A stretch of 35,098 nucleotides of DNA, from positions 1 to 35,098 of the forward strand of contig JANXVU010000135.1 of the NCBI GenBank assembly GCA_025351485.1. The letters are read 5' to 3'. Made by a program: the position numbers and the translations under genes. The notes beneath the pieces are model-generated. The model was not told where the DNA came from and made no database searches. It was given only the letters and a program-made list of their open reading frames with translations. Origin of the DNA: Candidatus Eiseniibacteriota bacterium. Lineage in GTDB: Bacteria; Eisenbacteria; RBG-16-71-46; JACRLI01. Positions 6,635 through 23,445 of the stretch are shown piece by piece. Numbering within the stretch: position 1 is the stretch's first letter; every line of letters begins with the position of its first letter.

Positions 6635-6763
6635 AATCGGCGATATATCCCACTCAGACAGCATCCCGTTCGGGCGATCCCGACTGTTCCTGCACCTTGC
6701 CGAACTGTTCTATCCGGCTGCCTTCCGGTGCGGCCGGACCCTCGACTGAAGAGGACCGCTCAC

Positions 6764-9616
6764 ATGAACTCCCGCCCCGCGCTCCGCCTGGCTTTCGCGG
6801 CGATCCTGACTTGTCTTGGAATCACCTGGCTCGCGTCACAGGGGCGCGCGGCGTGCGTGCTGGACTCGCTGCTGCTGGGGAAGCCCGCGGCCCCGGTCGG
6901 GGCAGGTCCGTTCGGCATCACCGCTGGAGACTTCAACGCGGACAGCATTCCCGACCTCGCGTTTGCCGTGCTCGGAGAAAACTCGGTCAAGGTATTGCTC
7001 GGGGTGGGAGACGGGACGTTTGGTCAACCGTCGGTGTATCCGGCCGGTAGCTCTCCCACCAGCGTGGTGGCGACCGACCTGGACGGCGATGGCATCCTTG
7101 ACCTGATCGTTTCGGACGGGGACCCGGTGGCCAGTGCCATCCTGGTGCTCAAAGGCCTCGGCAGCGGGGGCGTGGGCAACGGCCACTTCGCCCCAGCCGT
7201 CGCCTACCCGTCCGGCCCGCAGGTGTACCGGGTCGCCGTGGGGGACTTCAATCATGACGGTCACCCGGATATCGCGGCGACCTTCTTCGGATCCAACCGG
7301 GTGGGCGTCTATCTCAACAACGGGGACGGCACCTTTCCGGCGCTCGTCGTCTCGTACCCGACCGGACTGAAACCCTACGGGGTCGAGGCGGCCGATCTGA
7401 ACGGTGACGGCGTTGCGGACCTGGTAGTGGGAAATCAGGACGGCAATACGATTTCGGTGCTCTTAAATAATGGGGACGGCACGTTCAGGCCTACCGTGAA
7501 TTACCTGGCATCTGGATACAATTACGAAGTCCGGGTGGCAGATCTCGACGGTGATGGAGCGCCGGACCTGGTCGTGGTGCAGAGCTCAAATGAGGCCGGA
7601 GTGGGAGTGCTCATGGGACATTTGTCCGCGGGTCTCCCGGACGGCACTTTCGGGGCAGTGACTTCCAACACGACCAGCAGCAGGGATCGGGCATCGCTGG
7701 TGGTCGCGGATCTGGATCACGATGGCCGCCTGGATATCGCGGTGACCGAACCCTCCAGCGGTAAATTGGAAATCCTGCGCGGGTTTGGCGACGGGTCCTT
7801 TGCGCATCTGCCCACGGTCTACCCGGTCGACGGGTATCCGTGGGAGCTCACAGCCGCCGATTTCAACCACGATGGCATGCTGGACCTGGTGACGGGGGGA
7901 TATCGCGGAGGCAACTTTACGGTCCTCCTTGGCCGCTGTGCCAGCACTCTCCCTCCGCCTCCGCCTCCCTGCCCCGGCAGCCCGCTCTTTGATCCAGCTG
8001 TCTACGTCGGGACCGGAGGAGCGCCATTCGGGATCGGGACCGGTGATTTCAATGGTGATCACATTCCCGATCTGGTGGTCGCCAACCTGGGCCAGAACCG
8101 GCTGCAGGTCCTGATTGGCAGACCGAATGCCACGTACTCTAATCCCGTGCCCTTCTACGCGGGCGAAGGACCGATTGGCGTCGCCACGGCCGACTTCAAC
8201 GGCGATGGAATCCTCGATCTGGTGGCTGCGGATGCTTCCCAGAACGCCAACTCGGTCGGCGTGCTGCTGGGACTCGGCTCCGGCGGCGTCGGCGACGGGA
8301 ATTTCGGTCTCCTCCGCCAGTTTCCAGCCGGCGCGCAGCCGTTCGCGGTCATTGCGGGGGATTTCGATGCCGACGGCAGGCAGGATCTGGCGGTCGCGGA
8401 TTACGCTGACCACAGGGTAGCGGTGTTGCTCGGGAACGGTGACGGCACCTTCCGCGTGCCCGTCTTCTATCCGTGCGGAGATCGCCCCTACGGGCTGGCC
8501 TCCGCGGACCTGGATGGCGATGGAATTCCAGACCTGGTGGTGGGCAGTGAAGGCACCAAGGATGTCACGATTCTCAAGGGGGTCGGGGACGGCACATTCA
8601 GCTGGACCGAATCCTGGGGCGCGGCGGGTCCGGCCTATTCTGTCGCCGTCGGGGATTTCAATCACGATGGGCTGCCGGACATTGCGATGATCAACGGAGG
8701 GACTCCCACGATCGGTGTGCTCCTCGCGATCAGCCCGGGACACTTCACGGGAGCGAAGAATTACCAGGTTACAACCAACGGCCCCCTCGGACTCGTGGCG
8801 GCGGACTTCAATCACGACGGAATTCTCGACCTGGCGGTGGGCAATTCAAGTGGCGGCTCGGTGGACGTCCTCATCGGGCTGGAGAGCGGCGGGCACGGCA
8901 ACGGAGCATTTTCCGCGCCGTTTAATTTCCGTGCGGGACCGGTGGCCGCCAGGCTGGTCGCTGCTGATCTGGACCGCGACGGCACTCCCGACCTGGCGGT
9001 CGCCGATTACGCTGGCGGCTGGGTCTCGATCCTGCGCGGCGGCTGCCGCCTGGTCACCGACGTGCTGGTCAGCGATGCGCGCGCCGAGGCGGAAGACGGC
9101 GCGGTGCGCCTGAGCTGGTCAGTCGCCTCGGATGGTCCGGTGGAATTCCAGGTGTCTCGCTCCACGGCGCTCGAGGCGGGCTACCTTCAGGTGGCTTCAT
9201 TCCCCGTGCAGCAAGGCCGTGAAGAATATTCCTGGCGGGACAACACCGCTCAGCCCGGGCTCACCTACTTCTACAAGATCGCCTACCGGCAGAGCGGGGC
9301 GTGGAAAGTTTACGGCCCCGTCCGAGTCCAGGCAGCCGCTGCGCGGTTTGCCCTTCGCGGGACCGCGCCCAATCCATCCCGCGGCCCGGTGCGGATCGAC
9401 TACGAGATGGACCGGGCTGGTCCGGTCCGCCTGGAAGTGTTCGATCTTTCGGGACGCCGGGTCGCGCGGCTGGTCGATGGCCAGGCGCCGGCCGGGCGGG
9501 CCTCGGTGCAGTGGAACCCCCGGGTGGAGGGGACCCGGCTCCCGGCGGGCGCCTACTTCGTGCGCCTGAGTTCGGGGGCCCGGCAGGAATCCCGGAAGCT
9601 GGTTGTGGCTCCGTAG
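6764..9616 (+). CDS. Secreted FG-GAP/VCBS double beta-propeller with FnIII-like and FlgD-Ig/T9SS-like C-terminal domains
   Basis: 950 aa from ATG 6764 (AGAGGA upstream), with an N-terminal signal peptide ending near residue 29. Fourteen calcium-loop motifs of the form D-x-[ND]-x-D-x-x-x-D occur between residues 56 and about 745, seven in each half. Each half is bracketed by Cys: C31 to C392 and C403 to C761, 361 and 358 residues apart. A six-proline linker joins them. Matching second blades ('GLGSGGVGNGHF' and 'GLGSGGVGDGNF') support a tandem duplication of a seven-bladed propeller. Residues about 762-865 look like a fibronectin-III-type domain. The last 80 residues, with 'APNPSRGPVRIDYEM' and 'LPAGAYFVRL', match the FlgD-Ig/T9SS type A sorting-like domain common in FCB bacteria. 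It is probably an extracellular adhesive or ligand-binding protein; the ligand is unknown. Base composition is slightly more AT-rich than in neighbours. Confidence 0.9.
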   Translation: MNSRPALRLAFAAILTCLGITWLASQGRAACVLDSLLLGKPAAPVGAGPFGITAGDFNADSIPDLAFAVLGENSVKVLLGVGDGTFGQPSVYPAGSSPTSVVATDLDGDGILDLIVSDGDPVASAILVLKGLGSGGVGNGHFAPAVAYPSGPQVYRVAVGDFNHDGHPDIAATFFGSNRVGVYLNNGDGTFPALVVSYPTGLKPYGVEAADLNGDGVADLVVGNQDGNTISVLLNNGDGTFRPTVNYLASGYNYEVRVADLDGDGAPDLVVVQSSNEAGVGVLMGHLSAGLPDGTFGAVTSNTTSSRDRASLVVADLDHDGRLDIAVTEPSSGKLEILRGFGDGSFAHLPTVYPVDGYPWELTAADFNHDGMLDLVTGGYRGGNFTVLLGRCASTLPPPPPPCPGSPLFDPAVYVGTGGAPFGIGTGDFNGDHIPDLVVANLGQNRLQVLIGRPNATYSNPVPFYAGEGPIGVATADFNGDGILDLVAADASQNANSVGVLLGLGSGGVGDGNFGLLRQFPAGAQPFAVIAGDFDADGRQDLAVADYADHRVAVLLGNGDGTFRVPVFYPCGDRPYGLASADLDGDGIPDLVVGSEGTKDVTILKGVGDGTFSWTESWGAAGPAYSVAVGDFNHDGLPDIAMINGGTPTIGVLLAISPGHFTGAKNYQVTTNGPLGLVAADFNHDGILDLAVGNSSGGSVDVLIGLESGGHGNGAFSAPFNFRAGPVAARLVAADLDRDGTPDLAVADYAGGWVSILRGGCRLVTDVLVSDARAEAEDGAVRLSWSVASDGPVEFQVSRSTALEAGYLQVASFPVQQGREEYSWRDNTAQPGLTYFYKIAYRQSGAWKVYGPVRVQAAAARFALRGTAPNPSRGPVRIDYEMDRAGPVRLEVFDLSGRRVARLVDGQAPAGRASVQWNPRVEGTRLPAGAYFVRLSSGARQESRKLVVAP

Positions 9617-11514: not shown

Positions 11515-12612
11515 ATGACCACGCCCCCCGTTCTGCTCAACTCCGACGACTACGAAGACGAGGCCCGGGCCCGGCTCTCCCCGGGCGCCTACGGCTATTT
11601 CGCGGGCGGATCCGAGGACGAGATCACGCTTCGCGAAAACCGCGCCGCCTGGGAGCGCATGGCCCTGCTGCCGCGGGTGCTGGTGGACGTGAGCCGCCGG
11701 AACCTCACCACCACCGTGATGGGATCTCCCGTCGCCATGCCGGTGCTGCTGGCCCCGTGCGCCATGAACGCGCTGGCCCATCCCGACGGGGAACTGGCCG
11801 TGGCGCGGGCCGCCTCCGCCACCGGGGTGCTGCAGGTGCTGAGCACCGGCTCCTCGAGGAGCATCGAGGAAGTGGCGGCCGTGTCGACCGGCCCGCGCTG
11901 GTTCCAACTGTATTGCATTCGCGATCCCGAAGTCAGCCTGTCCCTGGTGCGGCGGGCCGAGGCCTCCGGCTACTCGGCCATCGTGCTGACGGTGGACATG
12001 GCGGTGCTGGGCACCCGCGAGCGCGACCTGCGCACCGGGTTCGAGCTTCCTGACGGAATCACCTGGAAGAATCTAGAAGCCGCCGACGCGCAGGCGTTGG
12101 CGCCCCGGGTTCACGGCTCGCCCGCATCCGCCGACGAGACCTGGTACCAGGCGCTGGACTGGAACTTCCTGGAAGAGCTGTGCCGGTTCACGGCTCTGCC
12201 GGTGCTGGTGAAGGGAGTGCTGTCCCCGCTCGACGCGCGGCTCGCCGTGGAACACGGTGCGCGCGGCATCGTGGTCTCGAACCACGGCGGCCGGCAACTG
12301 GACGGCGCGATTTCGACCGCGCGGGCGCTGCCCGCGGTGGCCGAAGCGGTGGCCGGCCGCGCGGAAGTCTACGTGGACGGCGGCATCCGCCGCGGGAGCC
12401 ACGTCCTCAAGGCGCTGGCCCTGGGCGCGCGGGCGGCGCTGGTGGGGCGGCCGTACCTGTGGGCCCTGGCCGCCGGAGGAGAGTCCGGCGTGGGAGATTG
12501 GCTCGAGCGGATCCGCGGGGAATTCGACGCCGCCATGGCCCTATCCGGACTGACCGACACGTCGCAGATTTCAGCCTCCCTGCTCGCCCCCGAATCGCGC
12601 CCCAGCACATGA
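11515..12612 (+). CDS. FMN-dependent alpha-hydroxy-acid oxidase/dehydrogenase
   Basis: 365 aa TIM-barrel flavoprotein that oxidises an L-2-hydroxy acid (lactate, glycolate or similar) to the 2-oxo acid. Active-site residues of the glycolate/lactate oxidase family are all in place: Tyr in 'YGYFAGG', Tyr in 'WFQLY', Asp in 'LTVDMA', Arg in 'GTRERD', Lys in 'VLVKG', and the catalytic His257 and Arg of 'SNHGGRQLD'. 'VDGGIRRG' and 'ALVGRP' bind the FMN phosphate. No signal peptide or membrane-anchoring insert is present, so a cytoplasmic oxidase-like form is likely. The ATG at 11515 has no strong Shine-Dalgarno but matches the family N-terminus. Substrate cannot be told from sequence. The position between kdsD and lptC, where kdsC is usual, is odd. 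Confidence 0.92.
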   Translation: MTTPPVLLNSDDYEDEARARLSPGAYGYFAGGSEDEITLRENRAAWERMALLPRVLVDVSRRNLTTTVMGSPVAMPVLLAPCAMNALAHPDGELAVARAASATGVLQVLSTGSSRSIEEVAAVSTGPRWFQLYCIRDPEVSLSLVRRAEASGYSAIVLTVDMAVLGTRERDLRTGFELPDGITWKNLEAADAQALAPRVHGSPASADETWYQALDWNFLEELCRFTALPVLVKGVLSPLDARLAVEHGARGIVVSNHGGRQLDGAISTARALPAVAEAVAGRAEVYVDGGIRRGSHVLKALALGARAALVGRPYLWALAAGGESGVGDWLERIRGEFDAAMALSGLTDTSQISASLLAPESRPST

Positions 12613-12658
12613 GCGCCCCGGTTCATTAAGTTCCTTTCGCTGATGCCGATAATCTACG

Positions 12659-12674
12659 TGGCATAGTTGTTGCT
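12659..12674 (+). promoter_or_regulatory. Sigma-54 (-24/-12) promoter before lptC-lptB-rpoN
   Basis: TGGCATA, four bases, then TTGCT. GG (12660-12661) and GC (12672-12673) are separated by exactly 10 bases, as the -24/-12 consensus TGGCAYG-N4-TTGCW demands; one position of the -24 box differs (A for G). Transcription would start near 12685, giving a leader of about 28 bases with AGGGTGA (12699-12705) before the lptC ATG. It lies in the 100-base gap after the oxidase gene. Since rpoN is the third gene of the unit, the site suggests autoregulation. No enhancer-binding protein gene is in the window. Confidence 0.65.
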
Positions 12675-12712
12675 TGATCCTTCCGTTCTTTCTCTGTTAG
12701 GGTGACGTGGAA

Positions 12713-13288
12713 ATGAACCGAACCCCCTCGGGTCCGCTGGCCCTGGTCACCCTCGCGTTCCTGGCCGTGATGTCGCTGGCTGCGGGATGCTCCAAGGAGA
12801 GCGCCGCGCCCGCTCCGACCGCGGGCCGCGTCGGGCCGGACGAGGTGATCGAGGACTTCGAGGTGACCGAGACTTCCGCGGGGACGCGCACCAGCGTGGT
12901 GCACGCCCGCCGGGCCCGGATCTACCAGTACGACGGGCACACCGAAGTGGACGGCCTGGACGTGGACTTCTACGATGCCTCGGGAAAGAAGTACTCGCAC
13001 CTCCGGAGCGACCGCGGCAGCCTGAACCAGAACACCAAGGACATGAAGGCCGAAGGCCACGTGGACATCGTGACCATCGAGGGCGTGCACGTGGAGGCCC
13101 CGGTGATCCAGTACTGGGACGCATCGCAGAAGCTGGTGTCGGACGCGCTGGTCAAGGTCACCGACAAGAACGGCAGCGTGCTGACCGGCGTGGGATTCGA
13201 GAGCGACACCAAAGTCACCCACTATCGCGTGGGCAAGGTGAACGCGACGCTTCGCCCGTCCGAGCCGGGCCGCGGGAAAGGGAAGTAG
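12713..13288 (+). CDS. lptC: LptC-like lipoprotein of the LPS export machine
   Basis: 191 aa. ATG 12713 is preferred over GTG 12707 because AGGGTGA at 12699-12705 then has 7-base spacing. An N-terminal hydrophobic stretch ends in a lipobox-like 'LAAGC', so the protein is probably lipidated rather than held by the transmembrane helix of E. coli LptC. The rest is the beta-jellyroll type: 'FEVTETSAGTRTSVVHARRA', 'GSLNQNTKDMKAEGHVDI', 'VSDALVKVTDKNGSVLTGVGF' and 'ESD' follow the LptC pattern (wrapping strands, GhV turn, G-x-G-x-x-x-D). It would bridge LptB2FG to periplasmic LptA. lptB starts 3 bases after its stop codon. No lptA lies between them, unlike proteobacteria; LptA must be elsewhere or the name is imprecise. 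Confidence 0.82.
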   Translation: MNRTPSGPLALVTLAFLAVMSLAAGCSKESAAPAPTAGRVGPDEVIEDFEVTETSAGTRTSVVHARRARIYQYDGHTEVDGLDVDFYDASGKKYSHLRSDRGSLNQNTKDMKAEGHVDIVTIEGVHVEAPVIQYWDASQKLVSDALVKVTDKNGSVLTGVGFESDTKVTHYRVGKVNATLRPSEPGRGKGK

Positions 13289-13290
13289 CC

Positions 13291-14010
13291 ATGCTCTGCG
13301 CCCGCGGCCTGGTCAAGCACTATGGAAAGTTCAGGGTGCTCGACCACGTGGACGTGGAGGTGGCGCCCGGGGAAGTCGTGGGGCTCCTTGGCCCGAACGG
13401 CGCCGGGAAAACCACCACGTTCTACATGCTGGTGGGGCTGCTGGTACCCGACGAGGGTGTGATCACCCTGAACGGCGTGGACGTGACCCGCATGCCGATC
13501 TATAAGCGCGCGCGGCTGGGGCTGGGCTACCTGGCCCAGGAACCCTCGGTGTTCCGGAACCTGACGGTGAAGGACAACGTGCTGGGCGTGCTGGAAGTGA
13601 TGCGCACTCCCTCGGCCATGCGCCGGCGCCGGCTCGACGAACTGCTGGGAGATCTGGGAGTGGCGCACCTGGCCGACCGGAAGGGTTATAATCTTTCCGG
13701 CGGGGAGCGGCGCAAGGTGGAGATCGCGCGCGCGCTGGCGGCCTCGCCCTCGATCTTGCTCCTGGACGAGCCGTTCGTGGGAATCGACCCGATCACGGTC
13801 GCCGACATCCAGGACATCGTCATGAAACTCCGGGCGAAGGGGCTGGGCATCCTGATCACGGACCACAACGTCCGCGAAACCTTGTCCACCACCGACCGGG
13901 CGTACCTGCTGTTCGAAGGCAAGATCCGCGTGCAGGGCACGTCCCGCGAACTGGCGGACGACCCGTGGGCCCGGAAGGTTTACCTGGGCGAGCGATTCAC
14001 GCTTCCCTAG
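13291..14010 (+). CDS. lptB: LPS export ABC transporter ATP-binding protein
   Basis: 239 aa, full length for LptB. It powers LPS extraction from the inner membrane as an LptB2FG dimer. Walker A 'GPNGAGKTT' (34-42), Q-loop in 'YLAQEPSVF', signature 'LSGGERRK' (from 135), Walker B 'SILLLDEPFVGIDP' and H-loop 'ITDHNVRETL' are all present. 'EPSVFRNLTVKDN' and 'DHNVRETL' are characteristic of LptB rather than of amino-acid transporters. It follows lptC by 2 bases and precedes rpoN by 35, the same order as in proteobacterial rpoN clusters. Confidence 0.96.
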   Translation: MLCARGLVKHYGKFRVLDHVDVEVAPGEVVGLLGPNGAGKTTTFYMLVGLLVPDEGVITLNGVDVTRMPIYKRARLGLGYLAQEPSVFRNLTVKDNVLGVLEVMRTPSAMRRRRLDELLGDLGVAHLADRKGYNLSGGERRKVEIARALAASPSILLLDEPFVGIDPITVADIQDIVMKLRAKGLGILITDHNVRETLSTTDRAYLLFEGKIRVQGTSRELADDPWARKVYLGERFTLP

Positions 14011-14045: not shown

Positions 14046-15512
14046 ATGGAAATGAAGCACGGGCTGCAGCTCAGCCAACGCCCATCCCTGATCATGACGC
14101 AGCGCCTGCAGCAGGCGCTGAAGCTGCTGCAGATGCCGCAGCTCGAGCTCAATCTGACCATCAAGGCGGAGCTGGAGACCAATCCCTTCCTGGAGGAAGT
14201 GGATGAACTCCTGGAGGAGGCCGTCCCGACCGAGGACCGTGCGTCCGAGACCGACGTGCCCACGCCCGCCGACCCGGAGCCCGAAACTCCCGCCTCTTCC
14301 TCCGAGGAGGAGGACTGGTCCGAGTACTACCAGAACAACGACTTCGACAATCCGTACGTTCCCGCCGAGGACCACTCCGGAGAATATTTCGAGAAGGTCG
14401 CCGTCACCACCATGGGGCTCAACGAGCACCTGGAAACCCAGTTGCTGCTGCTGCCGATCACCAAGGAAGAGAACGAGGTGGGGCGCTATCTGATCGGACT
14501 GCTGGACGAACGGGGCTATCTGATGAGCCCCAAGCCCGAAGGGGAGGACGATCCGGGCCGCGTGGTCCCCGAGGTCGCCGAGATCCTGGGCAAGCCCGTG
14601 GAGATGGTGGAAAAGGTGCTGAACGTGATCCAGGCCCTGGAGCCCGCTGGGGTGGGGGCGCGCGATCTGCGCGAGTGCCTGCTGATCCAGCTCCGGCACC
14701 GAGGTACGGAAGCTTCCCTGGCTTATCGCCTGATCGAGGAGCAGTTCGACAACCTGGTGAACCGCCGCTTCCAGGACATCGCACGACACTTCAAGGTGAC
14801 CGTGGAGCAGGTGCAGGAGGCGGGCGACGCGATCGGCACGCTCTCGCCCAAGCCGGGGCTGGACGTGTCCCAGGAAGAGCCCAAGTACATCATTCCCGAC
14901 CTGGTGGTGGAGCGCGTGGACGGCGAGTACGTGGTGTACCTGAACGACCGGCATGTGCCCCGGCTCAGGGTCAGCAACACCTACGAGAAGCTGTTGCGCG
15001 AGCGCAAGGGCCGCGGCGACAAGACCCGCGAGTTCGTGCAGGGCAAGCTGTCCTCCGCCCGCTGGCTCATCCAGACCATCGAGCAGCGCCGCCGCACCAT
15101 GATCAAGGTCATGACCTGCATCGTGGATAAGCAGCGCGAGTTCTTCGAAAAGGGCATCGCGTTCCTGCACCCGCTCACGCTGCAGGACGTGGCCCGCGAG
15201 ATCGGCATGCACGAGTCCACCGTGAGCCGCGTGACTTCCGGCAAGTACGTGCAGACCGGCCGGGGCGTGTTCGAGCTGAAGTTCTTCTTCTCCAGCGGCC
15301 TCCGGGGGGACAATGGCGAGGATGTGTCGGCCAAGTCGGCCCGCGACATCATTTCCCGACTGGTCACCGGCGAGGACAAGAAGGACCCGCTCAGCGACCA
15401 GAGGATTGCCGAACTGATGAAGGACCAGGGCGTGGACATTGCACGCCGCACCGTCGCCAAGTATCGCGAGCAGCTTCAGATCCTGCCGGCCCGCTACCGG
15501 AAGCGCGTGTAG
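14046..15512 (+). CDS. rpoN: RNA polymerase sigma-54 factor
   Basis: 488 aa from ATG 14046; a second ATG at 14052 is equally usable and neither has a strong Shine-Dalgarno. Region I is the Gln/Leu-rich activator-interaction helix ('LQLSQRPSLIMTQRLQQALKL'-like, residues 5-35). An acidic region II follows (about 55-105), then the core-binding domain, the HTH with 'LQDVAREIGMHESTVSR', and the RpoN box 'ARRTVAKYRE' at 466-475 that reads the -24 element. All functional parts are intact. A sigma-54-type promoter lies before lptC, so RpoN may control its own operon. hpf follows after 33 bases, as in many Gram-negative genomes. Confidence 0.97.
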   Translation: MEMKHGLQLSQRPSLIMTQRLQQALKLLQMPQLELNLTIKAELETNPFLEEVDELLEEAVPTEDRASETDVPTPADPEPETPASSSEEEDWSEYYQNNDFDNPYVPAEDHSGEYFEKVAVTTMGLNEHLETQLLLLPITKEENEVGRYLIGLLDERGYLMSPKPEGEDDPGRVVPEVAEILGKPVEMVEKVLNVIQALEPAGVGARDLRECLLIQLRHRGTEASLAYRLIEEQFDNLVNRRFQDIARHFKVTVEQVQEAGDAIGTLSPKPGLDVSQEEPKYIIPDLVVERVDGEYVVYLNDRHVPRLRVSNTYEKLLRERKGRGDKTREFVQGKLSSARWLIQTIEQRRRTMIKVMTCIVDKQREFFEKGIAFLHPLTLQDVAREIGMHESTVSRVTSGKYVQTGRGVFELKFFFSSGLRGDNGEDVSAKSARDIISRLVTGEDKKDPLSDQRIAELMKDQGVDIARRTVAKYREQLQILPARYRKRV

Positions 15513-15545: not shown

Positions 15546-16070
15546 ATGGACGTCGTCATCACGGCCCGTCACTTCAAGCCTTCCCCCAAGCTGCGCGCCC
15601 ACGTCCTGGAAAAATTCGGGCGTCTTTCGCGCTACCTTCCGCCGGAGTCCGAGGGCATCCACGTCACCCTGAGCGCCGAGCGCAACCAGAAGCGCGTGGA
15701 GGTCGTGGCCGGGGCGGTGCGCATCAAGCAGGAATCCGACGACCTGATGTCGGCCGTCGAGCAGGCGTTCGACCGCATGAAGGAGCGGTTGGCCAAGGAC
15801 CACGACAAGCGCCGCGAGCACAAGGGCCGGATGTCGGTCCGCGACACCTCGGGCGGGCGGGCGACCGCGCGCCGCATCACGCGCGAGCCCAAGCTCAAGC
15901 GCGAGGCGCATGAGATGGAGGAGGTCGAGGTGGAGGCCGCCGCCCGCGCGTTCGCCAAGAGCAAGAAGCCGTTCATGATCTTTGTCAGCAGCGAGACGGG
16001 CCAGGTCAACGTCCTCTATCGGCGCAAGGACGGGGAGCTGGGCCTGATCGAGGCGGAGCCGCAGGAATAG
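15546..16070 (+). CDS. hpf: Long-form ribosome hibernation promoting factor
   Basis: 174 aa with AAGGAG (15534-15539) before the ATG. The N-terminal beta-alpha domain (1 to about 100), starting 'MDVVITARHFKPSPKL', binds the 30S decoding centre. A basic linker with 'GRATARRITRE' leads to a C-terminal dimerisation domain (about 120-170, 'KPFMIFVSSETGQVNVLYRRKDGELGLIE'-like). The C-terminal domain marks the long form, which makes 100S dimers by itself. The position after rpoN is standard. hprK starts 5 bases beyond the stop codon, so they are probably cotranscribed. Confidence 0.95.
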   Translation: MDVVITARHFKPSPKLRAHVLEKFGRLSRYLPPESEGIHVTLSAERNQKRVEVVAGAVRIKQESDDLMSAVEQAFDRMKERLAKDHDKRREHKGRMSVRDTSGGRATARRITREPKLKREAHEMEEVEVEAAARAFAKSKKPFMIFVSSETGQVNVLYRRKDGELGLIEAEPQE

Positions 16071-16074
16071 CCGC

Positions 16075-17043
16075 GTGAACTCGATATCGGTCGCACGCTT
16101 CTTCGAGGAGCAGAAGGACGAGCTCAAGCTGGAGCAGCTCACGACCAGCCTGCAGTGCCCGGTGGAGATCACCACCAGCGACATCAACCGCCCGGGCATG
16201 TGCCTGATGGGGTTCACCGAGAATTTCCTGGCGGAGCGCATCCAGATCCTGGGGCAGACCGAGATCAGCTATCTGGCCCAGCTTTCCGGCGAGGAGCCGC
16301 GCGAGTCGCTGGAAAGGCTGCTGCAGTTCCAGGTGCCGTGCATCATCGTGGCCAAGGGACTTGAAATCCCGCCCCACCTGGTCGAGCGCTGCAACGGCCT
16401 GAAGATCCCGGTGATGCGGACCCCCATGTCCACCACGCCGTTCATCCACGACCTGACCAAGTACCTGGACACGGTGTTCGCGCCCAGCGTGATCATCCAT
16501 GGGTCGCTGGTGGACGTGTACGGCGTGGGGTTGCTGTTCACCGGCAAGAGCGGGATCGGCAAGAGCGAAACCGCCCTGGACCTGGTGGAGCGAGGCCACC
16601 GGCTGGTGGCCGACGACGTGGTCACGGTCACCCGCCGCCAGGGCGACATCCTGATCGGCATGGGCAACGAAGTGCTGGCGCACCGGATGGAAGTCCGCGG
16701 CCTGGGGATCATCGACGTTCAGAGCATTTTCGGCATCCGGTCCATCCGGGCGCAGAAGCGCATCGAACTGCAAGTGAACCTGCAGGAGTGGGGGGCCACC
16801 GAGAACATCGACCGGCTGGGCCTGGACGACCACCACACCACGCTGCTCGACGTGAGCATTCCCTATCTTGAAATCCCCATCTTCCCCGGAAAGAACATCA
16901 CGGTGATCGCCGAAGTGGTGGCGCTGAACTACCTGGTGAAGGTCTACGGCTACAACCCGGCCGAGGTGTTCAACCAGCAGCTCCTGGAGCACATGCGCAA
17001 GCGCAGCGTGGCCCGCGCCTGGGTGCGGGACGACACCGAATGA
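16075..17043 (+). CDS. hprK: HPr kinase/phosphorylase
   Basis: 322 aa, GTG start with AGGA about 10 bases upstream. It phosphorylates and dephosphorylates Ser46 of HPr. An N-terminal regulatory domain is followed by the catalytic core: His142 in 'IIHGSLVDVYG', Walker A 'GKSGIGKS' (157-164), 'GHRLVADDVV', and the family signature 'MEVRGLGIIDVQSIFG' with 'IELQVNLQEW'. Its substrate is encoded in the same cluster: the HPr here keeps Ser46. It overlaps the EIIA start by ATGA. This arrangement (rpoN-hpf-hprK-EIIA) parallels proteobacterial rpoN-hpf-ptsN-rapZ clusters but with HprK and mannose-type EIIA. Confidence 0.96.
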   Translation: MNSISVARFFEEQKDELKLEQLTTSLQCPVEITTSDINRPGMCLMGFTENFLAERIQILGQTEISYLAQLSGEEPRESLERLLQFQVPCIIVAKGLEIPPHLVERCNGLKIPVMRTPMSTTPFIHDLTKYLDTVFAPSVIIHGSLVDVYGVGLLFTGKSGIGKSETALDLVERGHRLVADDVVTVTRRQGDILIGMGNEVLAHRMEVRGLGIIDVQSIFGIRSIRAQKRIELQVNLQEWGATENIDRLGLDDHHTTLLDVSIPYLEIPIFPGKNITVIAEVVALNYLVKVYGYNPAEVFNQQLLEHMRKRSVARAWVRDDTE

Positions 17044-17459
17044 CGATCCACGCGCTGATCGTGGCCCACGGGGACCTGGCGCGGGCGCTTCTCGCGGCCG
17101 TGGAGAAGCTCGCCGGCCCCCAGGAGGGCGTGAGGACGCTGTCCAACGAGGGCTGCGATATGGAGACGCTGCGCGCGCGCATCCAGCAGGCCTCGGACGA
17201 GCTGGGCTCCGGGCCGCTGGTGGTGTTCGCGGACCTGTTCGGGGGCTCGTGCGCGAACGCCTCCACGGCCCTCATCCATGGCCGTCCGGATTGGCGCCTG
17301 GTGACCGGCGTGAACGTGCCCATGCTGGTCAACTTCTTCCAGAACCGCGAACGGCTGCCGCTGGACGAGACGATCGACCTGCTCGTCTCCCGGGGCCGCG
17401 ACGGGGTCAAACGCTTTCCCGAGACGGAACATGGCCTGGCTTCTCGTCCGACTGGATGA
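17040..17459 (+). CDS. PTS mannose-family EIIA component
   Basis: 139 aa cytoplasmic phosphocarrier. It accepts phosphate from HPr on His10 ('IVAHGDLA'); Asp65 in 'FADLFGGS' is the conserved partner residue. A four-base overlap joins it to hprK, and its last 29 bases overlap the EIIB start, so the genes are translationally coupled. Stand-alone EIIA-Man proteins of this size are common in proteobacteria in regulatory roles; here EIIB, EIIC and EIID follow in the same operon. The sugar is unknown. Confidence 0.93.
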   Translation: MTIHALIVAHGDLARALLAAVEKLAGPQEGVRTLSNEGCDMETLRARIQQASDELGSGPLVVFADLFGGSCANASTALIHGRPDWRLVTGVNVPMLVNFFQNRERLPLDETIDLLVSRGRDGVKRFPETEHGLASRPTG

Positions 17460-17910
17460 CCGGCTGCTGCACGGACAGGTCGCGGTCGGCTGGACCGGTG
17501 CCCTGCGTCCGCGTCAAATCCTGGTGGCCGACGATCGGCTGGCCTCCTCCGGCTGGGAGAGGGAAATGGTCGAGGCGTCCGCGCCCGAAGGGGTGGCCGT
17601 GCGGGTGTTGAAGGTGGACGAAGTGGCCACCGTCCAGCCCGACGAGCAGGCCGGATCCTTTCTGTTGTTGCGCTCCCCGCTCGAGCTCGCGCGGCTGGTG
17701 CGCGCCGGGGTCCGGCCGCCCGAGGTGAACGTGGGCGGCCAGCACACTTCCGTCGGCAAGACCCGCCTGCTCGACTACATCCACATGGACGCCGCCGACG
17801 CCGCGATGGCCCGTGAGTGCGCCGAGGCCGGGGTCCGGCTGTTCGCCCAGGACGTTCCGGGCAATCCACGCCTCGAGCTCTTGCCGCTGCTCTCCAAGGC
17901 CGGGCTATGA
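17431..17910 (+). CDS. PTS mannose/sorbose-family EIIB component
   Basis: 159 aa. The N-terminal 'LVRLDDRLLHGQV' holds the phosphorylated His14, the hallmark of the family; 'VNVGGQHTS' later is also conserved. It transfers phosphate from EIIA to the sugar carried by EIIC/EIID. The start lies inside the EIIA 3' end and the stop codon overlaps the GH57 start (ATGA). It is a separate polypeptide, unlike E. coli ManX in which EIIA and EIIB are fused. Length is typical. Confidence 0.93.
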   Translation: MAWLLVRLDDRLLHGQVAVGWTGALRPRQILVADDRLASSGWEREMVEASAPEGVAVRVLKVDEVATVQPDEQAGSFLLLRSPLELARLVRAGVRPPEVNVGGQHTSVGKTRLLDYIHMDAADAAMARECAEAGVRLFAQDVPGNPRLELLPLLSKAGL

Positions 17911-20033
17911 AGTCCGTTTCGCTGCTGCTCGCCCTGCACAACCACCAGCCGGTCGGAAACTTCGATTCCATCTTCGAGGAATGCTACGAGAAGTCCTACC
18001 TTCCGGTGCTGGAGACGTGGCGGGACTTCCACGACATTCCCTTCTCCATCCACAACTCGGGCGTGCTGTGGGACTGGCTGGCCGAGCACCGTCCCTACTA
18101 CCTGGAGCTGGCGAAGGTCCTTTCCATGAGCGGCCAGATGGAGCTGCTGACGGGCGGCTACTACGAGCCGATCCTGGCCGCGATCCCCGACGCCGACAAG
18201 ATCGGCCAGGTCCGCAAGCTCACCGCCTTCCTGCACGACCGCTTCCGCGCCACGGCCGAGACGCTGTGGCTGACCGAGCGGGTATGGGAGCCCGCCCTGC
18301 CGGCGCCGCTGGCCGCCTCCGGGGTCAAAGCCGTGCTGGTGGACGACGAGCACTTCCACGCCGCGGGCGTGGCGCACTCCGACCTGGCGGGGTACTTCGT
18401 CACCGAGGAGGCCGGGGAATCGGTGGCAGTGTTCCCCATCCTCAAGGAACTGCGCTACCTGATCCCGTTCCGTCCGCCGGAAGAGACCATCGAATTCCTG
18501 CGCGGCTGGTCGGACGAGAGCGGCGACCGGCTGGCGGTGCTGGGGGACGACGGCGAAAAGTTCGGAGTCTGGCCGGACACCTACAAGACGGTGTTCGAAG
18601 AAGGCTGGCTGCGGCGTTTCCTGGAACTCCTCCGGCAGAACAAGGATTGGCTGCAAGTCACCACGCCCGCGCGCTGGATGCGCGAGAAACCTTCGCGAGG
18701 CCTGGTCTACCTGCCCGCCGCCTCCTACGCCGAGATGGGCGAGTGGGCCCTGCCGACCCGCGCCCAGGGAGCGTTCCAGGACGTACGCCACCGCGAGGAG
18801 CACCACGCCGACGCCGCGCCGTTCGTGCGCGGCGGGTTCTGGCGGAACTTCCTTTCCAAGTACCCCGAGAGCAACCGCATGCACAAGCGGGCGCTGGACC
18901 TGAGCCGCCGCATCCGCGAACTGCCCGAGCCGCAGCAGCAAGGGCCCCTGGACGCGCTGTGGCAGGGCCAGTGCAACTGCGCCTACTGGCACGGCGTGTT
19001 CGGCGGGCTGTACCTGCCGCACCTGCGGGACGCCGTCCACCGGCGGTTGCTGCGGGCCGAGACGCTGCTGATGGAGGCGCGCGGCCTGGAACTGGGGGCC
19101 CGCGAGTTGGAACTGTTCGGGGACGAGGGCGGCGCGTGGCTGCTGTTCAACCCGCACCTGAGCCTTGGAGTTTCCCCGCAGCGCGGCGGGATGCTGTTCG
19201 AGTGGGGCGACCGCCGCACCGGGCACGACTTCGGAAACACCCTTGCGCGCCGCACCGAGGGTTATCACGCCAAGTTGAGCCAGGCCGGCCAGGGCGCAGA
19301 AGGCGACGGGCACGGGGCCAGCATCCATGACCGGGTGAAGATCAAGGAGCCCGGTCTGGAGAAGCTGCTGGCCGAGGACGCGCTCCCCCGCGCCTCGTTC
19401 CTGGACCACCTGCTCCCCATGGAGGTGACCGAGGCGGAGGCCCGCCGGCACCTGGCAACCGGGCCGTTCGACTTCGCCGGGCGCCCTTACGAGGCCGGGC
19501 TGGAGTGGGACCGGGACCGGGTGATCCTCGAGTTGAAGCGCGAAACCGATCTCGCCGGATGGGCCGGGTCCCGGATCCGCGTTACCAAGTTGTACACGCT
19601 GCTGCGCGACTACTCCGCCTTCGAGGTGATCTACCGGGTGCAGCACGTTTCCGGCCCCGCGGTGGAGGCGCGGTTCGGCGTGGAGTGGAACGTCACATTC
19701 CTGACCGCTTCTGCGATGGACCGCTGGATCGACCTTGGCGAGCGCGGCGGGCGCGTGGGCATGGGGCATGAGGGCGCTTTCGAGTCCGTCGGGGAGTTCA
19801 AGCTGGGGGACGAGTGGCTGGACCTGGTCTTCGAGGCGGACGTGGAGCCCTCCGCATCCGTCTGGACCTGGCCGGTCGAAACGGTCTCGCTCTCGGAGGA
19901 CGGTTTTGAGCGCAACTACCAAGGCACCTGCATCCTGCATCACTGGCCGCTGGCGCTCCGGGAAGGGGAGTTGCGCGAGTTCCGGTTCGAAGTCCGGAAC
20001 GTGCCGCTCCGCTCCGCGGCGGCCGCGCCGTGA
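17907..20033 (+). CDS. GH57 alpha-glucan enzyme, 4-alpha-glucanotransferase-like
   Basis: 708 aa from ATG 17907, overlapping EIIB by ATGA; the open frame reads 30 codons further upstream only inside EIIB. The N-terminal (beta/alpha)7 barrel has GH57 region 1 'HNHQP' (11-15), the nucleophile Glu124 in 'TERVWEP', and the acid/base Asp in 'LGDDGEKFG' (214/215). These positions agree closely with Thermococcus litoralis 4-alpha-glucanotransferase (Glu123, Asp214). 'FWRNFLSKYPESNRMHKR' and 'QCNCAYWHGVFGGLYLPHLR' match the DUF1925 region; the C-terminal 300 residues form the DUF1926-type beta-sandwich. No signal peptide is present, so it acts on intracellular glucan (glycogen or maltodextrin). GH57 members also include alpha-amylases, so exact activity is open. 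A PTS operon is an unusual home: EIIC overlaps its end by GTGA. Confidence 0.93.
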   Translation: MKSVSLLLALHNHQPVGNFDSIFEECYEKSYLPVLETWRDFHDIPFSIHNSGVLWDWLAEHRPYYLELAKVLSMSGQMELLTGGYYEPILAAIPDADKIGQVRKLTAFLHDRFRATAETLWLTERVWEPALPAPLAASGVKAVLVDDEHFHAAGVAHSDLAGYFVTEEAGESVAVFPILKELRYLIPFRPPEETIEFLRGWSDESGDRLAVLGDDGEKFGVWPDTYKTVFEEGWLRRFLELLRQNKDWLQVTTPARWMREKPSRGLVYLPAASYAEMGEWALPTRAQGAFQDVRHREEHHADAAPFVRGGFWRNFLSKYPESNRMHKRALDLSRRIRELPEPQQQGPLDALWQGQCNCAYWHGVFGGLYLPHLRDAVHRRLLRAETLLMEARGLELGARELELFGDEGGAWLLFNPHLSLGVSPQRGGMLFEWGDRRTGHDFGNTLARRTEGYHAKLSQAGQGAEGDGHGASIHDRVKIKEPGLEKLLAEDALPRASFLDHLLPMEVTEAEARRHLATGPFDFAGRPYEAGLEWDRDRVILELKRETDLAGWAGSRIRVTKLYTLLRDYSAFEVIYRVQHVSGPAVEARFGVEWNVTFLTASAMDRWIDLGERGGRVGMGHEGAFESVGEFKLGDEWLDLVFEADVEPSASVWTWPVETVSLSEDGFERNYQGTCILHHWPLALREGELREFRFEVRNVPLRSAAAAP

Positions 20034-20728
20034 TCGCCATCTACCAGAAGGCCGCGTTCTTCGGCCTGGCCGCGCTCCTGGGCGCGGACCAGACGGCCGG
20101 TCCGCAAGTGATGCTGAGCCAGCCGGTGGTGGCCGGCATGATCGGCGGCCTGGTCGTGGGCCAGCCGATCCTGGGAGCCTTGATCGGCGTGGCGGCGCAG
20201 TTGGCGTGGAACGGAGCGGCCCCGGTGGGAAGCCTGCCCAACCCGGATGTTTCGGGCGGCGTCCTCGCCGGGATCCTCACCACTGGTCGGCTTTCCGAGC
20301 ATGTGGGCCCGGGCCGCGCGATTCTGGCGGGCCTGGCGGTGACGCTGCTGGCCGGATGGGCAGGCAGCGCGATCATCCTGCTCAATCGTCGTTTGAATGC
20401 GCGCTGGACGCCGTGGGTGCTGGCGGCGCACGGGCCGGCGCGACACCGGCGCGCGCAACAGGCCACCGGCCGCGCGTGGTTGCTGACCGGCACCCTTTCC
20501 GGGACATGGGTCCTGGTGGCGGCCGCCCTCGGCAGCCGGCTGGCGCACCTGCTGCTTGGATGGCTGCCGGTTTCGACAGGCAACATGAGCGTATGGTATC
20601 CCTTCGGGTGGGGCCTCGGGCTGGCGGGATGCGTGCTGGCGTTCTGGAAGGACCGCGCGCGGGACTGGGCATGGATCCTGGGCGGAGCTCTCGCCGCGGG
20701 CGCGCTGAAAGTGGCGGGGGCGTACTGA
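20030..20728 (+). CDS. PTS mannose/sorbose-family EIIC component (divergent)
   Basis: 232 aa integral membrane protein, GTG start overlapping the GH57 stop codon. Several hydrophobic helices are visible. The N-terminal third ('DQTAGPQVMLSQPVVAGMIGGL', read in parts, then 'VVGQPILGALIGVAAQLAWNG') follows the ManY pattern: a polar D...Q motif before helix 2 and a 'G...G...iG...el...g' substrate-site stretch. It would form the sugar channel with EIID. It is shorter than E. coli ManY (about 266 aa), and a basic loop near residues 122-148 ('RRLNAR', 'ARHRRAQQ') is prominent. Transport competence is likely but not certain. Confidence 0.85.
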   Translation: MIAIYQKAAFFGLAALLGADQTAGPQVMLSQPVVAGMIGGLVVGQPILGALIGVAAQLAWNGAAPVGSLPNPDVSGGVLAGILTTGRLSEHVGPGRAILAGLAVTLLAGWAGSAIILLNRRLNARWTPWVLAAHGPARHRRAQQATGRAWLLTGTLSGTWVLVAAALGSRLAHLLLGWLPVSTGNMSVWYPFGWGLGLAGCVLAFWKDRARDWAWILGGALAAGALKVAGAY

Positions 20729-20729
20729 G

Positions 20730-21410
20730 ATGTGGGAACGGACGCACTTTCTTCAAGCGGTCTTCAGTTACGAGTACAAGCAGAACATCGGGTTTGCCGC
20801 GGTGTACGGGGAGCTCGCCGGGCCGGAATCGGTAGCGGGCGATGAATACTTTCGCCCGTTCAACACCAACCCGGTGACGTCCAGCTTCGTGATTCCCTTC
20901 CTGGCCCGGCTGCGGGAACAGGGGGCCGGCGCCGAGGAGTTCGAGCGGGCCAAGGCGTTCCTGTCCACTTCGTTCGCGGCCACCGGGGACCGTTTTGCGT
21001 GGTTCCTGCTGCGGCCGCTGGCCGGGCTCATGGGGGCCACGGTATTGTGGGTCCTGCCCGGGGCGTCCTGGCTGGGGGTGCTGACGCTGCTCCTGGTCTA
21101 CAATGGTCCGCAGCTCCTGCTCCGCTCCCGCCTGTGGAGGGCCGGCAGCCGCGGGGACTCTCCGGCTGCCGAGGTGCAGCGCATCAGCCGGATGTCGGAG
21201 ACGGTCCGGCGGGCGGGCCTCGCGGCGACTGGATTCGCCGCGGTGGCGGTGCTGGCCCGCGAGCCGTTCGGACATCCGGAGGCCGTGGGCTTCATGGCCG
21301 TGGCCATCCTGATTTCTCTACCGATGTTGAAGCGCTTTCCGCGCTCCGGCACCTGGATCGCCCTGGGATTCCTGGGGCTGACCCTCACCCTCAACCACGG
21401 ACTGCGCTGA
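20730..21410 (+). CDS. PTS mannose/sorbose-family EIID component (divergent, short)
   Basis: 226 aa, ATG one base after the EIIC stop codon. 'FNTNPVTSSFVIPFLARLREQGA' (in parts) matches the conserved 'FNTqP' segment of EIID, and 'ATGDRFAWFLLRPLAG' lies where typical members have 'GvGDPiFWgtvRP'. The C-terminal half has hydrophobic stretches around 98-125, 165-183 and 188-226. The family is usually about 270-300 aa, so this copy is short and the Gly-Asp-Pro motif is altered (Asp-Arg). It would partner EIIC; whether it moves sugar or serves mainly in regulation cannot be told. Confidence 0.83.
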   Translation: MWERTHFLQAVFSYEYKQNIGFAAVYGELAGPESVAGDEYFRPFNTNPVTSSFVIPFLARLREQGAGAEEFERAKAFLSTSFAATGDRFAWFLLRPLAGLMGATVLWVLPGASWLGVLTLLLVYNGPQLLLRSRLWRAGSRGDSPAAEVQRISRMSETVRRAGLAATGFAAVAVLAREPFGHPEAVGFMAVAILISLPMLKRFPRSGTWIALGFLGLTLTLNHGLR

Positions 21411-21411
21411 A

Positions 21412-21678
21412 GTGTACTCGGAAGAAGTCGTCATCGAAAATGAGCTGGGGCTGCACGCACGGCCGGCCGCGCTGTTCACGCGCACGGCCACTCGTTTCAA
21501 GTCGGAGGTCTACGTCTGCAAGGACGGGACGCAGATCAATGGAAAGAGCATCCTGGGCGTGATGATGCTGGCCGCGTTCCAGGGAACCCGGCTGACCATC
21601 CAGGCCGAAGGCGAGGACGAGACCGATGCGGTCAAGGCCCTCGTCGAGCTGGTGAAAGGCAAGTTCGGTGAGAACTGA
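21412..21678 (+). CDS. ptsH: Phosphocarrier protein HPr
   Basis: 88 aa, GTG one base after the EIID stop codon. His15 in 'GLHARPA' takes phosphate from EI and passes it to EIIA; Ser46 in 'NGKSILGVMML' is the HprK target. Both are at canonical positions and the protein is of normal length. With hprK five genes upstream, HPr can carry the Ser-P regulatory state. EI starts 9 bases downstream. Confidence 0.97.
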   Translation: MYSEEVVIENELGLHARPAALFTRTATRFKSEVYVCKDGTQINGKSILGVMMLAAFQGTRLTIQAEGEDETDAVKALVELVKGKFGEN

Positions 21679-21687
21679 GGCGTCCGC

Positions 21688-23445
21688 TTGAAGGGCAAGT
21701 CGGTCACACTGCAGGGCGTCGCCGCCTCCCCGGGCATCGGCATCGGGGAAGTGCGCGTGCTCAACTTCGACGAGCTGCGCGTGAGCGACCGCTCCGTGGG
21801 GGCCGCCGAGGTCGGGGCGGAAGTGGCGCGCTTCGAGCAGGCGCTCACCGAGGCGGCGCGCGAGCTGGGAGAAATCCGGGCCTGCTACGCCGAGGACATG
21901 GGCGAGGCGTCCGCGCTCATCCTGGATGCGCAGCTGCTGCTGTTGTCCGATCCGGTGATGCGCGAATCCACGATCAAGGTCGTGCGGTCGGAGCTCCGTA
22001 GCGCCGCGTGGGCCTTCCGCGACGTGCTGGCGGGCGCCCGCCACCACCTTGAGTCCTCCGAGAACGAGTACATGCGTGACCGGGCGGCCGACTTCCTGGA
22101 CGTGGAGCGCCGGGTGCTGCACCACCTGCTGTCGCGCAGCAGCGCCGGTTTGCGGGACCTCGCCGGGCCCTCCGTGCTGGTGGCCCACGACCTGCCGCCC
22201 AGCGAAACCGTGCTCATGCATCCGGACAAGGTGCTGGGCTTCGCGCTCGAAACCGGGGGCCGCACTTCCCACTCGGTGATCGTGGCGCGCTCGCGCGGGA
22301 TCCCGGCGGTGGTGGGCGTGCACGGCGCGCTGCGCGAGGTCCACGACGGCGACATGTTGATCGTGGACGGCAACGACGGGGTCATCGAGGTGAACCCCGA
22401 CGAGGCCACGCTCCATCGCTACCGCCAGAAACTTAAGGATTTCCAGGAGTTCGAAACCCGCCTGGAGCAGAATCGCGACCTGCCCGCAGTAACGCTGGAC
22501 GGCCGGCGCATCCAGTTGCTGGCCAACATCGAGGTGCCCGAGGAGGCCGAGGGGCTGCGCCGGCGCGGCGCCGAGGGCGTGGGCCTGTTCCGCACCGAGT
22601 TTTTCTACCTGAACCATGCCTCCCTGCCGACGGAGGAGGAGCAGTACGCCGCCTACAGCGCGGTTGCCCGGGCGATGGCCCCGGATTTGGTGGTGATCCG
22701 CACCATGGACGTGGGCGGGGACAAGGTGACCTCCTACATGGGGGCCTCCCCGGAGGACAACCCCTTCCAGGGCTGGCGCGGCATTCGTTATTCGCTGGCG
22801 CACGAGGACATTTTCAAGACCCAGCTCCGGGCCATCTACAGGGCCAGTGCGCACGGCGAGCTCTGCATCATGATTCCCATGGTGACCCGCATCGAGGAGA
22901 TCGAGCGCACCCGCGAGCTGTGCGCGGAGGTCCGGCAGGAGCTGGTGGGGGCCGGGATCCCGTGCTCCCCCGACATCAAGCTCGGGATCATGGTGGAGAC
23001 GCCCGCGGCGGTGATGATCGCCGACCACCTGGCCGGCGTATCCGACTTCTTCAGCATCGGGACCAACGACCTGCTCCAGTACACGCTGGCCGTGGATCGC
23101 GGCAACGAGCGCACTTCGCACCTCTACGAGCCGCTGGACGTGGCCATGCTGCGCTCCATCTCCCGGGTGGTGGAGGAGGGGCACAAGCGGGGGATCTGGA
23201 TCTCGGTGTGTGGCGAGATGTCGAACGATCCGCTGGCGTGCGTGGCGCTGGCCGGGCTGGGGGTGGACAAGATTTCGACCAGCCCGTTCGGGCTCCCGGG
23301 CATCAAGAGCATCCTGCGGTCCATTTCGTGCGCCGAAGCACGCCAGTGGATGGAACAGGCGCTGCAACTTCAAACCGCGGCCCAGGTGAGGCAGTTGCTC
23401 CGCGCCCACCTCACCCAGGCCTCCGAAATCCTGCGCTGGGCCTAG
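21688..23445 (+). CDS. ptsI: PTS enzyme I (phosphoenolpyruvate-protein phosphotransferase)
   Basis: 585 aa from TTG 21688, with GAGG about 8 bases upstream; the protein then starts 'LKGKSVTLQGVAASPGIGIGE', the family N-terminus. Autophosphorylates from PEP at His195 ('GGRTSHSVIVARSRGIPAV', in parts) and passes phosphate to HPr. The C-terminal PEP barrel contains 'GVGLFRTEF', 'RTMDVGGDK', 'GTNDLLQYTLAVDR' and the catalytic Cys508 in 'VCGEMSND'. Full length with all active-site motifs, so the PTS chain is complete in this window. A 67-base spacer with no clear terminator follows. Confidence 0.97.
   Translation: MKGKSVTLQGVAASPGIGIGEVRVLNFDELRVSDRSVGAAEVGAEVARFEQALTEAARELGEIRACYAEDMGEASALILDAQLLLLSDPVMRESTIKVVRSELRSAAWAFRDVLAGARHHLESSENEYMRDRAADFLDVERRVLHHLLSRSSAGLRDLAGPSVLVAHDLPPSETVLMHPDKVLGFALETGGRTSHSVIVARSRGIPAVVGVHGALREVHDGDMLIVDGNDGVIEVNPDEATLHRYRQKLKDFQEFETRLEQNRDLPAVTLDGRRIQLLANIEVPEEAEGLRRRGAEGVGLFRTEFFYLNHASLPTEEEQYAAYSAVARAMAPDLVVIRTMDVGGDKVTSYMGASPEDNPFQGWRGIRYSLAHEDIFKTQLRAIYRASAHGELCIMIPMVTRIEEIERTRELCAEVRQELVGAGIPCSPDIKLGIMVETPAAVMIADHLAGVSDFFSIGTNDLLQYTLAVDRGNERTSHLYEPLDVAMLRSISRVVEEGHKRGIWISVCGEMSNDPLACVALAGLGVDKISTSPFGLPGIKSILRSISCAEARQWMEQALQLQTAAQVRQLLRAHLTQASEILRWA

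Follow-up and report, generated by a model that had tools for sequence, protein, structure and literature searches.

Upstream of the lptC-lptB-rpoN genes in the stretch of DNA analyzed here (35,098 nucleotides; hereafter, the window), a sigma-54 -24/-12 element is fused to the -35 element of a housekeeping-type promoter. We observed the site itself, its conservation, its fused register with the -35 and -10 elements, and its near-exclusive occurrence at the rpoN operon. This arrangement probably mediates negative autoregulation, in which Esigma54, or sigma-54 itself, would occupy the site and block the -35 element of the rpoN operon promoter.

A near-consensus sigma-54 promoter with exact GG/GC spacing had been proposed in front of lptC in the initial annotation, and its position, strand, and consensus match were all confirmed (Table 1). 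The GG (12660-12661) and GC (12672-12673) of TGGCATAGTTGTTGCT show the correct GG-N10-GC spacing, in agreement with the TGGCAY / TTGCW consensus, and the element is the single zero-mismatch match to TGGCAYRNNNNTTGCW in the window. It lies within a 100-bp gap (12613-12712) between the open reading frame of an FMN-dependent dehydrogenase and lptC. Transcription from this element is predicted to start at approximately 12684-12686, leaving a leader of ~28 nt before lptC, for which ATG 12713 is a likelier start than GTG 12707. Genome-wide motif counts, here and below, are pattern searches; TGGCAYN5TTGCW had five exact matches in the 3.44-Mb genome, the element upstream of lptC among them. Near matches with one or two mismatches to the sigma-54 consensus were not above chance in the window or in the genome, where one-mismatch matches were compared with a reversed-pattern control. 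Therefore, the match score proves little alone, and it is conservation that carries the proof.

Table 1. Promoter elements and genes of the rpoN operon region, with positions in the window
Feature	Position	Strand	Evidence or remarks
FliA/WhiG (sigma-28)-like block, TTAAGTTC-N11-GCCGATAA	12626..12652	+	Conserved in 17 of 18 f1 and f2 genomes
Sigma-54 -24/-12 element, TGGCATAGTTGTTGCT (TGGCAT-AGTTG-TTGCT)	12659..12674	+	Exact consensus match and conservation
-35 element TTGATC, housekeeping-type promoter	12674..12679	+	TTG(A/C) nearly invariant at this register; first T common to the sigma-54 element
Extended -10 element TGt-TAGGGT, spacer 18	12695..12703	+	In relatives, spacer 17 and TGnTAGCGT
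lptC, lipoprotein-type N-terminus	12713..13288	+	PF06835, E 2.3e-12
lptB, ABC ATPase (LptB-like)	13291..14010	+	PF00005; gene order kept in relatives
rpoN (sigma-54), RpoN box ARRTVAKYRE	14046..15512	+	PF00309, PF04963, PF04552
hpf-type ribosome hibernation factor (S30AE/HPF)	15546..16070	+	PF02482, PF16321
hprK, HPr kinase/phosphorylase	16075..17043	+	PF02603, PF07475

Loss of the motif in close relatives had been named beforehand as a result that would speak against the promoter; we ran this check, and the promoter withstood it. In the sister family f2, which belongs to the same order as the window (Candidatus Eisenbacteria), TGGCAY-N5-[GC]TGCTTG was found upstream of lptC in all 17 genomes with readable upstream DNA. 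Pairwise identity within f2 reaches 0.97 in the -24 block and 0.92 in the -12/-35 block versus ~0.30 in the flanks, and the 9-bp -10 block is 92% conserved versus ~30% in the flanks. The element also precedes lptC-rpoN genes in other Eisenbacteria families and in records labeled Krumholzibacteriota or Latescibacterota; such phylum names are record labels that may be imprecise, all the organisms are uncultured, and most of the genomes are MAGs. GG, GC, and the C at -12 are invariant across the 42 training sites, which scored at least 19.2 with the PWM built from them, while other forward-strand sites scored at most 15.0 and the best reverse-strand site 17.1. The element was absent from families f5 (8 readable genomes), f3, and f9, and no comparable site was found in the kdsD-lptC-lptA-lptB-rpoN region of E. 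coli. Two f10 genomes (L114 and L116) have, ahead of lptC, a perfect sigma-54 site that is not fused to a -35 element, and in family f11 (L111) TTGATC-N17-TAGCAT is placed 9 bp further on, suggesting that exact fusion is not required for the sigma-54 site to act. In other phyla (L277-L286), sigma-54-like sites lie near some rpoN genes, none of them fused to TTGAC. Unfused sites of this kind were seen in the rpoN regions of L277, L279, and L286, e.g., TGGCATACGTTTTGCT ~230 bp before rpoN in L286.

The fused design consists of TGGCAY-R-N4-NTGC joined directly to TTGAC-N17-TAnnnT, with one T serving both as the end of the -12 element and as the start of the -35 element; the promoter of the window reads TTGATC-N18-TGtTAGGGT. 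In f2, TTGC(G/A) shares its first T with the end of the sigma-54 element, TAnnnT follows at N17 in 17/17 genomes, and the full TGnTAGCGT is present in all but one, which lacks the TG. Loci of other Eisenbacteria families and of the Krumholzibacteriota or Latescibacterota records often show TTGCTTGAC-N17-TATAAT-like promoters ahead of lptC or of acyltransferase-lptC-lptB-rpoN operons, and the design is AT-richer at loci labeled Krumholzibacteriota or Latescibacterota, e.g., TGGCACACTGATTGCTTGACT-N17-TATAAA and TGGCATAATTGTTGCTTGACA-N17-TATAAA. Overall, TAnnnT occurs at spacer 17 in 25 of 45 distinct loci and is rare at other spacers; beyond f1 and f2, a clear -10 element at N17 is missing from approximately one-third of the loci. 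The sigma-54 site thus lies inside the footprint of a sigma-70-type promoter, with a base shared with the -35 element and a -10 element at N17/N18, which is the arrangement expected of an occlusion site. A promoter of the same type was also seen before mreB in one relative (L150).

Searched alone in 80 genomes, the fused element gave 43 matches in 42 genomes, versus 3 for a reversed-pattern control. Among 20 previously unseen loci picked by the motif alone, 19 were located at lptC, lptB, or a lipid A acyltransferase-lptC operon. Hence, the element has essentially one target, the rpoN operon, and can be used as a marker that leads to it. Of 20 genomes, 16 contained one match each to TGGCAYRNNNNNTGCTTGAC, and the control had none. 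A shorter form had 30 matches in the 47 genomes of the window's phylum; the rpoN operon accounts for 22 of them, and one more precedes an acyltransferase gene whose contig has no rpoN. These sequence comparisons strongly support a true sigma-54 site in front of the rpoN operon, from which RpoN autoregulation would follow. This part of the initial annotation is upheld by the cross-phylum conservation and the near single-copy occurrence at the rpoN operon.

The genes lptC, lptB, and rpoN are contiguous on one strand, with gaps of 2 and 35 bp, which places rpoN behind the sigma-54 site, and they are presumably cotranscribed. Their order is kept in relatives, and many fused-element loci begin with a lipid A acyltransferase gene (PF03279 in both of the two tested), followed by lptC-lptB-rpoN. 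Pfam recovered all three domains of RpoN (activator-interacting, core-binding, and DNA-binding), and the RpoN-box residues are largely invariant in the alignment; the genome encodes an intact sigma-54, together with AAA+ enhancer-binding activators (bEBPs). Several minor observations were made in these regions. In the window, the FMN-dependent dehydrogenase gene (11515-12612) separates lptC from a kdsD-like SIS-CBS gene, and in several f2 relatives the promoter is immediately preceded by the end of a kdsD-type gene. Mannose-type PTS components and EI seemingly follow hprK (17040-23445, by eye), which would link a PTS/HprK cluster to rpoN. Further upstream, 6728-9616 encodes an FG-GAP repeat protein of 962 aa that has a weak Por_Secre_tail (T9SS-type) sorting domain at its C-terminus, and Rfam gave no match in the window. 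Families f9 and f10 (G028, G031, G038, G040, G044, and G045) have two divergent rpoN-like genes per genome.

The Esigma54 closed complex does not open without an activator. As to sigma-54 binding, the direction of its effect (repression), and its physiology, we infer the following. The housekeeping holoenzyme would transcribe lptC-lptB-rpoN from TTGATC-N18-TGtTAGGGT until sigma-54 accumulates, whereupon Esigma54, or sigma-54 alone, would dock at the -24/-12 site just upstream. The docked Esigma54 would cover the -35 element, and the unopened closed complex would block the housekeeping polymerase. No dedicated repressor would then be needed for RpoN to limit its own operon. This is a concrete and testable design by which the sigma-54 level might be held constant, and the proposed control would tie that level to genes of LPS export and lipid A acylation. 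We lean, by a little, toward an ancient, self-contained feedback device present across several phyla, in which sigma-54 acts as its own repressor through a site welded to the -35 element and its level is coupled to LPS-export expression. In Geobacter, growth is inhibited when RpoN is overexpressed (PMC2725144), which would give a reason for a brake on rpoN.

Both sigma-54 occlusion of sigma-70 promoters and negative autoregulation of rpoN are already known elsewhere. In E. coli, sigma-54 sites occur in the sigma-70 footprint, and Esigma54 represses by binding competition, as confirmed in vitro (Schaefer et al. 2015, PMC4551910); overlapping sites of this kind are also attributed to Zafar et al. 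2014, as cited in PMC4551910. As in those occlusion sites, the sigma-54 site described here lies inside a sigma-70 footprint and has a C at -12, a base found in all E. coli repressive sites (PMC4551910) and invariant in our 42 training sites. However, the E. coli sites are scattered over genes of one species, whereas the rpoN element is a base-to-base fusion, located at rpoN, conserved across phyla, and present in about one copy per genome. Such a conserved, single-purpose site supports the view put forward in PMC4551910 that repression belongs to the basic functions of sigma-54. Negative rpoN autoregulation has been described in Rhizobium leguminosarum (as stated in PMC3538637); there too RpoN lowers its own expression, as we propose here, but in another lineage and operon, and the accessible part of that source describes no fused -12/-35 element. 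Sigma-54 promoters before rpoN have been inferred in several classes and taken as autoregulation (PMC12316311). Those cases likewise have a sigma-54 site upstream of rpoN, but there rpoN is read as transcribed from the sigma-54 promoter and the accessible passages note no overlap with a -35 element; PMC12316311 mentions neither Eisenbacteria nor Latescibacterota. The conserved neighborhood of LPS transport genes and rpoN is common to our case and the lpt/kds-rpoN gene context described in diderm bacteria (Francke et al. 2011, PMC3162934), which concerns gene context, whereas the present case adds a specific promoter element for that context. No report of the fused, single-copy, cross-phylum form was found in open-licence literature, and it may already have been described in a subscription journal.

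The main rival to negative autoregulation is a second, bEBP-activated promoter that overlaps the first, so that basal housekeeping transcription would be supplemented by sigma-54 transcription from ~12685, i.e., the positive autoregulation of the initial annotation. The perfect -24/-12 consensus would suit it, as would the two f10 genomes with a sigma-54 site alone before lptC and the sigma-54-driven rpoN inferred in several bacterial classes (PMC12316311). It is also favored by the approximately 22 strong bEBP AAA+ domains of the genome; all of these are on other contigs and none was found on the window's contig, which bears out the earlier statement that the window holds no enhancer-binding activator and argues against the dual promoter. 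An active sigma-54 regulon is evident from sigma-54 promoter-like sites downstream of 8 of 20 bEBP loci of the same genome (L004, L009, L010, L011, L014, L015, L017, and L018), on the same strand and ~540-690 bp past the AAA+ domain; the genes that follow include type IV pilin-like, FlgB-like (by eye), and response regulator genes. Nevertheless, these bEBP-linked promoters are not fused to a -35 element, and the predicted sigma-54 start at rpoN falls inside the housekeeping spacer. In addition, a search for conserved words and 4-bp dyads in the 200 to 250 bp upstream in f1 and f2 returned only the sigma-28-like block; since enhancers can be distant or degenerate and then escape such a search, this failure is weak evidence. 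Enriched upstream words at other loci (ATCCACGAC) were rejected as enhancers, as they look like the end of the upstream kdsD-type coding sequence. Because the -12 element abuts a conserved -35 element and no conserved enhancer-like element was found, repression by occupancy fits better than the RpoN-dependent transcription of LPS export genes claimed earlier, the sign of which had been assumed and not argued. Considering the closed complex that cannot open by itself, the E. coli occlusion precedent, the unfused bEBP-linked promoters, and the lack of a conserved enhancer, we prefer negative autoregulation and regard the bEBP-activated dual promoter as doubtful.

It is improbable that TGGCAYR-N4-NTGC is an operator for another activator or repressor, placed at ~-42 of the housekeeping promoter and resembling a sigma-54 site by coincidence. 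Such an operator would agree with the single target and with the register to the -35 element, fixed as class II activators require, but abutting elements keep their register without any contact requirement. The partial dyad GCAC-N5-GTGC of f2, which might be read as operator symmetry, is broken in the window and outside f2, while every core sigma-54 consensus base is kept, and GTGC variants also occur at the bEBP-linked sigma-54 promoters of the same genome (TGGCACAGGCCGTGCA). Moreover, the match spans the whole sigma-54 consensus, and the operon itself encodes sigma-54. A palindromic operator or terminator hairpin formed by the f2 dyad was rejected, as neither the window nor the other lineages keep the dyad intact, while the sigma-54 consensus holds. 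A chance match without function would be in line with the lack of enrichment of near matches in both the window and the genome; its probability is nevertheless negligible, as the comparative data, with cross-phylum conservation and operon exclusivity, refute it.

The sigma-28-like block upstream of the sigma-54 site was not found outside the window's order. The corresponding pattern, TNAAG-N15/16-CCGATAA, had 83 matches versus 1 in the control in 8 genomes, and the readable genes downstream were not mainly flagellar. In the genomes G000-G016 (L153-L182), it was seen before accB-like, TPR, GGDEF, and other genes. The flagellin promoters of the window's own genome lack this pattern, so "FliA/WhiG-like" stays a label and not a sigma-28 identity. 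Three f2 genomes without flagellin matches still encode a FliA/WhiG-family sigma, which suggests a nonflagellar role. In the window, 6 bp separate the end of the sigma-28-like promoter from the sigma-54 site downstream of it, and docked sigma-54 would block this promoter as well.
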